Below are positions 42,289 through 43,745 of a stretch of 43,745 nt of DNA, in pieces (within the stretch, counting starts at the first letter, position 1; each line of letters starts with the position of its first letter). The stretch lies in IMG/VR virus record IMGVR_UViG_3300042691_019090, positions 1-43,745 of that record. The stretch is one strand, 5' to 3'. Made by a program: the position numbers and the translations under genes. Source of the stretch: a virus. Below the pieces are notes generated by a model. The model searched no databases, was not told the DNA's origin, and was given only the letters and a program-made list of their open reading frames with translations.

Positions 42289-42609
42289 CTATTCGTTGCC
42301 GCTGCCGCTGCCGTCGCCGTAGCCGTAGCCGTTCCCGTCGCCGTCGCCGTAGCCGTAGCCGTTCCCGTCGCCGTAGCCGTTCCCGTCGCCGTTCCCGTCG
42401 CCGTAGCCGTAGCCACCGCCTCTACCGTCACCAACAGACCCATCACCCCAACCGTCGCCGTTAACGAAGCCGCCATCGCCACAGCTATAGCTATTGCCGT
42501 CAAAACGCATGGTTTGCGGGTAACCAGTTACAGTAACGCCGTCCGGCACGAGCTTGGCCCATAGATGGGAGGGGCAAAGCCCCTCACCACGCAGGCCAGC
42601 GGTCGTCAT
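42289..42609 (-). CDS. Gly-Tyr/Gly-Asp repeat protein with LWAKLVPDG head
   Basis: 106 residues. From ATG 42609, inside the end of the 89-residue gene, comes SHLWAKLVPDGVTVTGY, then a tail of alternating Gly with Asp, Asn, Tyr or Ser. Over the 17 codons of the head aligned with the gene at 42970 (His-Leu-Trp onward), six of seven base differences are synonymous, which argues that this stretch is translated in both. A shorter start at 42510 would drop the head. No Shine-Dalgarno sits before 42609, so translation may be coupled. The function is unknown. Confidence 0.65.
   Translation of the reverse strand: MTTAGLRGEGLCPSHLWAKLVPDGVTVTGYPQTMRFDGNSYSCGDGGFVNGDGWGDGSVGDGRGGGYGYGDGNGDGNGYGDGNGYGYGDGDGNGYGYGDGSGSGNE
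42297..42420. repeat. Hexanucleotide-type repeat (GGC-TAC / GGC-GAC)
   Basis: Plus-strand gccgta, gccgtc and gccgtt units in irregular order. On the minus strand these are Gly-Tyr, Gly-Asp and Gly-Asn codon pairs. Such arrays are prone to slippage in steps that keep the frame. Confidence 0.9.
42520..42531. repeat. GTAAC-N2-GTTAC palindrome inside a repeat-protein gene
   Basis: CA spacer. Codes for Val-Thr-Gly-Tyr at the junction of head and tail of the Gly-repeat protein. It is homologous to a one-base-different site at 43138 in the paralogue. Confidence 0.65.
42569..42585 (-). promoter_or_regulatory. GC hairpin at end of the 89-residue gene
   Basis: GAGGGGC pairs with GCCCCTC over a 3-base loop at the stop codon of the 89-residue gene. 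No U tract follows. It could modulate ribosome or RNA-polymerase passage into the Gly-repeat gene. Confidence 0.4.
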
Positions 42610-42853
42610 TGCACGGGATGAGGGCGATCATCGCAGGCGGCACGATGGTGACGAGCGGCGCGGGGTCATCCAGCTCCGTGTCTTTGGTGGGGCCGTTGAC
42701 GAGCTGGTTGAGGCCACGCTGGGTGCCCCAGCGGCGCACGATGCGTGCGTTGTGCAGATGGTAGAAGTCGCCGTCGAAGGTAATGCTCTTGGCCACCCAG
42801 ACGTGGCCGGCGGTGGCCACCACCAGTGTGGTGGTCCATTGGTTGATGCTCAT
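42584..42853 (-). CDS. Small beta-rich protein, unknown
   Basis: 89 residues. TTTLVVATAGHVWVAKSITF, then DGDFYHLHNARIVRRWGTQR and VTIVPPAMIALIPCNDDRWP. Alternating strands and a short helix. The FDGDFYHLHNA segment and a C-terminal CxxxxW recall small phage proteins of the DUF6948 kind, but this is not a firm match. A palindrome then AAGGAG lie upstream, and promoter 1 precedes them. Confidence 0.68.
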   Translation of the reverse strand: MSINQWTTTLVVATAGHVWVAKSITFDGDFYHLHNARIVRRWGTQRGLNQLVNGPTKDTELDDPAPLVTIVPPAMIALIPCNDDRWPAW

Positions 42854-42871
42854 GTCATGCTCCTTGGTTGT

Positions 42872-42883
42872 GTAACTGGTTAC
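42872..42883. promoter_or_regulatory. GTAAC-N2-GTTAC palindrome (TG spacer)
   Basis: In the leader after promoter 1, about 40 bases from its -10 and directly 5' of CCAAGGAG of the 89-residue gene. Confidence 0.8.
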
Positions 42884-42924
42884 GCCAGTCAGCGTTGGTG
42901 GGTGAAGCTCCTCCCCACTCTCTC

Positions 42925-42953
42925 CTTATACTACACATACTTTCCTATGTCAA
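42925..42953 (-). promoter_or_regulatory. Sigma70-like early promoter 1
   Basis: TTGACA (42948-42953), a 17-base spacer and TATAAG (42925-42930) on the minus strand, in the 116-base gap between the second Gly-repeat gene and the 89-residue gene. It is a near-consensus promoter for the housekeeping sigma factor, and its surroundings repeat promoter 2. Confidence 0.85.
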
Positions 42954-42969
42954 GTAGCCCTCCTTTGGT

Positions 42970-43194
42970 TTATCCGTAGCCGTAGCCCATGCCATAGCCG
43001 TAGCCGTTCCCGTCGCCGTAGCCGTTCCCGTCGCCGTAACCGTAGCGGTCGCCGTCGCCGTTACCGTAGCGGTCGCCGTCGCCGTCGCCGTCGCCGTCGC
43101 CGTCGCCGTAGCCGTTGCCGTCGCCGTAGCTGTAGCCGTAGCCAGTTACGGTATCCCCGTCAGGGACGAGCTTGGCCCACAGATGCACTCTCAT
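42970..43194 (-). CDS. Gly-Tyr/Gly-Asp repeat protein with LWAKLVPDG head
   Basis: 74 residues from ATG 43194, with GGAGAAG upstream inside the end of the next gene. Head VHLWAKLVPDGDTVTGYG, then a tail of Gly alternating with Tyr, Asp, Asn, Ser and a few Arg or Met to the last residue. It is the clearest member of the family, with a good ribosome site. It lies just upstream of promoter 1. The low-complexity tail could give a disordered or condensate-forming protein; that is speculation. Confidence 0.75.
   Translation of the reverse strand: MRVHLWAKLVPDGDTVTGYGYSYGDGNGYGDGDGDGDGDGDRYGNGDGDRYGYGDGNGYGDGNGYGYGMGYGYG
42975..43140. repeat. Hexanucleotide-type repeat, second array
   Basis: Same gccgta/gccgtc/gccgtt units as the array at 42297, here encoding the tail of the 74-residue repeat protein. 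Interruptions (gcggtc, cccatg) give Arg and Met. Confidence 0.9.
43138..43149. repeat. Degenerate GTAAC palindrome (GTAGCCAGTTAC)
   Basis: One base differs from the consensus in the left arm. The position corresponds to the exact site at 42520 in the paralogous gene, so it shares descent with that copy. Confidence 0.55.
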
Positions 43195-43372
43195 CCATCT
43201 TCTCCAAGGCGGCGAGGCGTTGGCGCAGGTGCGACGGGGCGAAACCCCAGACACCGAGAACATTGCGACCATAGTCGCTGCACTCGCGGTTGAGCTGCTG
43301 CTCCGTGGCGAGGAGCTCCGCTTTCAAGGCGTCGTAGCGCCGAAGAAGCTGGATTGCGGGGTGTTCATCCAT
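43160..43372 (-). CDS. Helical protein, unknown
   Basis: 70 residues: AIQLLRRYDALKAELLATEQ, then QLNRECSDYGRNVLGVWGFA and PSHLRQRLAALEKMDESASV. Two amphipathic helices, perhaps a coiled coil. It overlaps the following repeat gene by 35 bases and its own start lies in the end of the previous gene. No family was recognised. Confidence 0.68.
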   Translation of the reverse strand: MDEHPAIQLLRRYDALKAELLATEQQLNRECSDYGRNVLGVWGFAPSHLRQRLAALEKMDESASVGQARP

Positions 43373-43643
43373 TGTCTGCCTCCAGATTTTGTCTCACGTC
43401 GATGATGAAACTCACACCCGAGCTATCCTTGTCGGTGAAAGCCCGGATGGTGTCGTTCGGGTTCTCCTTCGCTTTGCGGAGCATCTCATAAAGCTCCCCC
43501 GCGAAGACCAGTTTCGCACCGTGGTTCTTCGCGAATATCCGGGCAGAGAGCTTCATCATCTCCTTCTGCCCCAGCCGGTAGGCCAGCAGGCAGGCCACTA
43601 CCGCGAGCGCAAGCCGCGCGATTGCAGATGCTGTGATAACCAT
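43365..43643 (-). CDS. Membrane-anchored small protein, unknown
   Basis: 92 residues. An N-terminal transmembrane helix (residues 4-22, TASAIARLALAVVACLLAYR) is followed by a soluble part: SARIFAKNHGAKLVFAGELY, MLRKAKENPNDTIRAFTDKD and GVSFIIDVRQNLEADNG. A strong GGAGGAG precedes the start. It is probably anchored in the inner membrane with the C-terminal part in the cytoplasm or periplasm. The function is unknown. Confidence 0.7.
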   Translation of the reverse strand: MVITASAIARLALAVVACLLAYRLGQKEMMKLSARIFAKNHGAKLVFAGELYEMLRKAKENPNDTIRAFTDKDSSGVSFIIDVRQNLEADNG

Positions 43644-43645
43644 TA

Positions 43646-43745
43646 TCAGTCTCCTCCGTCGCCGCCGTCGCCGTCGCCGTCGCCGTAGCCGTAGCCGTCG
43701 CCGTCGCCGTAGCTGTAGCCGTAGCCGTAGCCGTCGCCGTAGCCG
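43646..43745 (-). CDS. Gly-Tyr/Gly-Asp repeat protein, 5' truncated
   Basis: The minus-strand frame is open from the window's end to TGA at 43646-43648 and encodes only alternating Gly with Tyr, Asp or Ser, ending GDGGDGGD. The head lies outside the window, so membership of the LWAKLVPDG family is presumed. It ends three bases before the membrane-anchored gene. Confidence 0.65.
   Translation of the reverse strand, partial: GYGDGYGYGYSYGDGDGYGYGDGDGDGGDGGD

Follow-up and report, generated by a model that had tools for sequence, protein, structure and literature searches.

What are the proteins that alternate glycine with tyrosine, aspartate or asparagine in a phage contig from IMG/VR, and what might a phage do with them? 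The contig (record IMGVR_UViG_3300042691_019090) was analyzed over its whole 43.7 kb (43,745 nucleotides, nt), hereafter the window, and four genes of this kind, which we call Gly-X genes, lie on its minus strand. Judged from sequence comparison, we show that the Gly-X tract is a translated-frame sequence under protein-level constraint, and that a DUF6948-type gene followed by a Gly-X gene forms a two-gene phage cassette in widely different phages.

Protein-level constraint on the Gly-X tracts

All four genes reported in the preliminary description of this DNA (at 42289, 42970, 43646 and 36282, the third partial) were recovered on the minus strand. Their repeat arrays were delimited by Tandem Repeats Finder (TRF).

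42289..42609, minus strand: Gly-X gene 1, 106 amino acids (aa), head LWAKLVPDG and a tract of Gly alternating with Tyr, Asp or Asn
42310..42414, minus strand: hexamer array (GGC-NAC) of Gly-X gene 1, TRF period 6/30
42970..43194, minus strand: Gly-X gene 2, 74 aa if started at the favored ATG; the frame itself stays open to 43272
42974..43143, minus strand: hexamer array of Gly-X gene 2, TRF period 6/18/24
43646..43745, minus strand: Gly-X gene 3, 3' part only, TRF array 43663-43745
36282..36512, minus strand: Gly-X gene 4, 76 aa, degenerate tail, head LWARLLPEG

The head LWA[KR]L[VL]P[DE]G is common to the three complete genes (1, 2 and 4), as had been described, and gene 3 is cut by the contig end within its tract, leaving its head outside the sequence. 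The repeat codons given for the family, GGC-TAC, GGC-GAC and GGC-AAC, were found in genes 1-3 but not in the degenerate copy at 36282. Gene 2 probably begins with the ATG at 43194 (MRVHLWAKLVPDG...), preceded by GGAG, from which it overlaps a 70-aa gene at 43160-43372; gene 4 has an ATGA overlap with a 289-aa gene upstream (36509-37378). No hydrophobic leader or signal peptide was found in the window Gly-X proteins.

Within 42201-43745, Gly alternation reached 10/10 in the best stretch of 10 units and the maximum in 300 dinucleotide shuffles was 7, so the alternation is not due to chance. Among seven LWA heads from the window and two related contigs (L003 and L004), pairwise differences at codon positions 1, 2 and 3 numbered 26, 6 and 87, respectively. 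Both contigs keep the local order of the window, with the 89-aa gene described below, Gly-X genes, a VWA gene and other common genes, and their tails differ from each other through substitutions and indels that keep the frame, with most Gly residues retained. These codon-position differences and syntenic copies bear out the proposal that the head-plus-repeat proteins form a real family; disrupted frames in homologues, which had been named as evidence against it, were looked for in both contigs and not found. In the AT-rich phages L002 and L056 the Gly codons have drifted to GGA, GGT and GGG and Tyr is mostly TAT, and the alternation persists. Across the collection, different hexamers (GGC-NNC, GGC-NNT, GGG-NNC and GGT-NNC) encode the same protein pattern. 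A constraint on GGC as a DNA motif was rejected, as other tracts use GGG, GGT or GGA; in phages with G+C below 0.45, GGC makes up 0.66 of tract Gly codons versus 0.20 in other genes of the same loci.

The DUF6948 and Gly-X cassette

Directly upstream of Gly-X gene 1 lies a conserved gene that was absent from the preliminary description:

42584..42853, minus strand: DUF6948-type gene, 89 aa

Its 3' end overlaps Gly-X gene 1 by 26 nt, with the stop 128 nt before the tract. The protein matches Pfam DUF6948 (PF22253), an entry that gives no function, weakly (23.3 bits, E 7e-5, under the curated 27-bit cut-off), and matches our iterated profile hidden Markov model (HMM) strongly over the whole domain (E 7.4e-19, 68 bits). 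This HMM was seeded with genes found just upstream of Gly-X genes of the LHAT type (see below), with no window protein in the seed, and iterated over open reading frames (ORFs) from the collected loci; the family corresponds to DUF6948 according to Pfam, and 258 non-redundant DUF6948 sequences were collected. Several partner proteins stand well above the Pfam cut-off (E down to 1e-26), and distant relatives in L121, L007 and L052 reach 81-93 bits. Assignment of DUF6948 to the Sm/Hfq fold was unsupported (hhalign probability 0.7%, 15 columns), and DUF6948 as a host gene was rejected, with 0/369, 3/385 and 1/369 genomes positive in three class samples, the first and third of which overlap.

We scanned viral contigs and bacterial and archaeal genomes with a DNA pattern for GY-GY-GD-GY, which was found in at least 120 viral contigs and likewise gave at least 120 matches in the genomes. 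The viral contigs with Gly-X proteins range in G+C from 0.31 to 0.70, and the viral matches listed comprise 162 ORFs in 121 loci, with X mostly Tyr, Asp, Ser (TCN) or Asn. Such proteins had been called unusual for one phage and of no known function; the open-access literature searched indeed gives no description, but they are common in viral contigs and tied to a partner gene. The genome matches also include unrelated Gly-Tyr-rich low-complexity proteins that share the DNA pattern, which we take to be sulfur globule-type proteins of Chromatiaceae and Tyr clusters of BY-kinases. Unlike Gly-X proteins, the former have signal peptides (one is seen in each of L191 and L195) and Ala/Pro tails, the latter carry a kinase domain, and neither has a Gly-X head, a hexamer array or a DUF6948 neighbor.

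A same-strand DUF6948-type gene was present within 1.2 kb upstream of 78 of the 121 Gly-X ORFs with room in the pattern-sampled viral contigs (among the matches listed), and in the two families defined by C-terminal domains, LHAT and GSC, the proportions were 49/50 and 54/55. The corresponding figure in the genome set, which includes the unrelated BY-kinase and sulfur globule-type proteins, was 37/69. The median gap from the DUF6948 stop to the tract is 35-42 nt, and the genes often overlap. Many Gly-X ORFs lacking a DUF6948 call are later tandem copies or have weak profile matches upstream, as for several with the FxPVG head (E ~1e-4 to 1e-2). In a reverse test that started from the DUF6948 alignment alone, whose query bias is weighed below, Gly-X lay directly downstream at 61 of 73 viral loci with room; for the other ORFs of these loci the count was 17 of 460. 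The Pfam model found three matches in 385 alphaproteobacterial genomes; one is a Sphingomonas genome already in the set and the other two both have a Gly-X gene. The two parts also occur in one chain, as in an ORF of L011 (4912-5619) and in phrog_18306, in which Gly-X spans profile positions 41-134 and DUF6948 spans 147-236. L002 has a single DUF6948 gene and, after it, a run of about 17 small Gly-X genes, most of which overlap by 4 nt.

The heads of Gly-X proteins are diverse and unrelated (FxPVG, LTLDG, MKYPKG, INFEDSQNSHG, MIDxxFNN and a 60-aa "GAC" domain), and two unnamed domains recur after the tract. LHAT (~113 aa) was found at 73 loci (L266-L338), where the tract precedes it in essentially every resolvable ORF, and GSC (~150 aa) at the 80 loci kept (L339-L418); GSC also occurs with no Gly-X tract, in gp51 of Tetrasphaera phage TJE1. 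Profile searches gave neither domain a convincing PDB relative or a clear Pfam family. DUF7666 caps pentapeptide-type phage repeat proteins, and two of the 26 LHAT members match it weakly (E 0.0024 at best; none of the rest at E <= 0.1), a likeness in position after a repeat that is itself unrelated. A resemblance between GAC and GSC had been guessed by eye, and hhalign aligned the Gly-X tracts only. As a separate observation, L018 carries at 1660-2968 five tandem genes with the same head, GLKAFLKFG, and the same tail, GEPNLTSAGATVVEE, and differing Gly-X tracts between them.

Named phages with the pair include Rheinheimera phage Barba1A (gp018 and gp017), Pectobacterium phage Pappous (CDS0033 and CDS0032), Podoviridae ct8d5349 and Vibrio phage IKEMa6-1, the last with no annotation. 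Iodobacter phage PhiPLPE has gp84 and an overlapping, unannotated Gly-X ORF (L501, 1161-1406), a gene missed in a RefSeq phage, and Chlorobiaceae phage CV-1-33 has its downstream gene annotated in another frame, reading MAMAMALA. The pair is also carried by the Neisseria gonorrhoeae genome NZ_CP119142 (L505), presumably in a prophage; this 2.17-Mb record is a plasmid by its label and looks like a mislabelled chromosome.

Searches of Gly-X proteins against Pfam, PHROGs and NCBIfam returned low-complexity artefacts only (TrAA12, ser_rich_anae_1). Nothing was found by tblastn in named phages, whether the query was a whole Gly-X protein, GAC or LHAT, and GAC likewise gave no match in plasmids, in part because the complexity filter masks the tract. 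In the open-access literature, preprints excluded, no paper named DUF6948, printed these repeats or linked DUF6948 to Gly-X. On the strength of the database searches and this literature, the cassette appears to be undescribed. It was probably overlooked because gene callers miss or misframe Gly-X and low-complexity filters hide it from BLAST. Recurring as it does in phages of many unrelated hosts, it likely serves a general phage need.

Tract turnover and possible roles

X is Tyr (.41), Asp (.28), Ser (.21) or Asn (.05), with a mean tract charge of -9 and almost no Lys or Arg, in tracts of 10-83 units. The X alphabets are Asp-Ser-Tyr (109), Asp-Asn-Tyr (33) and Asp-Tyr (30), and Ser and Asn seldom share a tract. 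Hexamers were compared within tracts of 20 units or more, 237 distinct ones in all. Between neighboring hexamers, position 1 of the X codon differs in 49% of pairs and position 2 in 33%, and the third base differs in 3.9% (Gly codon) and 4.6% (X codon); the third base agrees across the Tyr, Asp and Ser/Asn codons of one tract in 228 of 237. The order of X is near random, with the longest repeated X block at 6.5 versus 5.05 in shuffled tracts. Turnover is also seen among 11 Barba isolates, a non-random sample chosen on genome length: eight have a tract unlike that of Barba1A, and over 686 nt of flanking sequence they show 0-1 differences. The changes include one extra GGCTAC, an AAC to TAC change and an AAC/GAC swap, and Barba19A has a wholly different order. 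We read this as a hexamer array that repeatedly collapses, regrows and re-diversifies, with selection on composition; a targeted mutational process might instead be at work. The target of a diversity-generating retroelement would show adenine-specific variation with an NNY spread, alongside a template repeat and a reverse transcriptase; the X set of Y, D, S and N only is unlike that spread, though no search was aimed at a reverse transcriptase.

Our preferred but tentative reading is that Gly-X proteins are composition-selected, multivalent low-complexity partners of DUF6948 that would act near phage DNA recombination. We infer composition selection from the coding constraint, the DUF6948 linkage and the tract turnover beside stable neighbors. 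The selected trait would be composition and alternation (Gly at every second residue; Tyr with Asp and with Ser or Asn) and not order, and the chain is most likely disordered and multivalent, with Tyr as stickers and Gly, Asp, Ser and Asn as spacers. It would bind or co-assemble with the small DUF6948 protein in early infection, and the concentrated assembly might recruit or hold phage DNA-recombination and replication factors, or a host target, placing the pair in the early DNA-metabolism phase. The commonest annotated neighbors of the cassette are Erf, RecT, RecE/exonuclease VIII, exonucleases, helicases and the AAA family phrog_1297. One DUF6948 gene per Gly-X array suits a scaffold present in excess over its folded partner.

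The prion-like domain of FUS is built on [G/S]Y[G/S] motifs. Compared by motif density and composition alone, Gly-X proteins resemble such domains in their dense Gly-Tyr-Gly (8 in the 74 aa of Gly-X gene 2), in having few charges besides Asp and in keeping composition while order changes, and differ in being strictly dipeptide-alternating, Asp-rich, phage-encoded and much shorter, with no RNA-binding domain in the chain. According to two papers, low-complexity domains act through sticker-and-spacer rules and phase separation of FUS has been selected despite fast sequence change (PMC9748015, PMC7947763). Tyr stickers, scarce Lys and Arg and a near-random X order would fit a composition-driven multivalent protein. 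The Tyr-rich tracts are an exception among low-complexity regions, because a survey of prokaryote and phage proteomes found aromatic residues under-represented there (PMC6821194). Turnover between near-identical isolates offers a natural test of whether function is kept by composition alone, and cultured phages (Rheinheimera Barba, Iodobacter PhiPLPE) open the question to direct testing.

Several observations weigh against a partnership of this kind. The DUF6948 query of the reverse test was built from Gly-X-linked proteins, a bias that was only partly offset, and 12 of the 73 DUF6948 loci have a different gene downstream, so Gly-X is not obligatory. Within the window gene 1 alone has a DUF6948 gene directly upstream; the genes preceding Gly-X genes 2 and 4 (43160-43372 and 36509-37378) were not recruited by the DUF6948 profile, and we read genes 2 and 4 as dispersed copies because they have their head in common with gene 1. 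A profile search of DUF6948 against PDB found no relative at E<=5. Finally, the mean net charge of DUF6948 is about 0, which makes it no obvious electrostatic partner of Gly-X. Charge complementarity between DUF6948 and the tract was unsupported (r = -0.12).

Among the alternatives, the population hypervariability of the tract leaves room for a decoy or barcode. It is possible, if doubtful, that the pair is an unrecognized system of a small folded protein and a low-complexity protein with X drawn from three letters (Y, D and either S or N), in which X codons change about ten times as much as synonymous sites and hexamer shuffling or exceptionally strong diversifying selection would create population variants of an early protein, something like an exchangeable barcode or decoy. 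A related and unlikely proposal is that host defense or competing phages impose diversifying selection on the tract, a fast-changing surface that DUF6948 presents or reads. The gap between X-codon and synonymous differences, the eight differing Barba tracts and the nature of the changes seen (whole-hexamer gains or changes at X position 1) are in its favor, but Y/D/S/N is a poor recognition alphabet, the order is near random, and recurrent hexamer slippage with composition selection may account for most of the variation with no recognition at all. A role in condensation or as a decoy had already been raised in the preliminary description and is speculation.

An ordered, silk-like structural element, in which Gly-X strands would stack through their Gly faces to form beta sheets or fibers, seems improbable: strict alternation would set all X side chains on one face, and essentially all resolvable LHAT relatives keep the tract before the C-terminal domain, but tracts have no turns or fixed strand lengths, vary from 10 to 83 units in arbitrary order, and tolerate many breaks in degenerate members. 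We give still less credence to an acidic sponge, in which the Asp-rich tails would chelate metal or mimic nucleic acid and keep DUF6948, or an enzyme of the host, switched off until required. The negative tract charge with almost no Lys or Arg and the early, recombination-side context agree with it; against it, the Asp share varies, Tyr is commoner than Asp, DUF6948 and tract charges are uncorrelated, and no RTX-type calcium-binding Pfam match was found among the Gly-X proteins scanned. That the array is repeat DNA open by chance in one frame, encoding no functional protein, is scarcely credible: synonymous bases are homogeneous within a tract, as in young DNA repeats, and in gene calling the array is often passed over or read in the wrong frame (PhiPLPE, CV-1-33), but the codon-position bias of the heads, the Gly kept through diversified codons in L002 and L056, the fixed C-terminal domains and the different hexamers yielding one protein pattern all speak against it.

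Other features of the window

Two further genes of the minus-strand arm lie near the Gly-X genes:

41033..42277, minus strand: metallopeptidase/VWA-like gene (DUF2201, phrog_1314), the next gene downstream of Gly-X gene 1
39054..40202, minus strand: AAA (MoxR-like) ATPase of phrog_1297, a family also near other cassettes

The window DNA polymerase has its nearest relatives, 34-37% identical, in Rhizobium phage RHph_TM3_14A and Pseudomonas phage KPP25. The 3' end of the contig falls inside a Gly-X tract and the 5' end in another tandem repeat, a 15-bp unit encoding (PAASK)n at 1-103. With a repeat broken at either end, the genome is probably circular there or else incomplete.

The palindrome GTAACNNGTTAC occurs 13 times in the window (20074, 31380, 32295, 35366, 36252, 37396, 38295, 39046, 40149, 41017, 41752, 42520 and 42872), mostly as GTAACTGGTTAC. 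No other 5+5 palindrome has more than two copies in the window, and related contigs lack GTAACNNGTTAC. Many of the copies sit at gene junctions in the minus-strand arm, and the palindrome looks like a candidate operator for a phage regulator.
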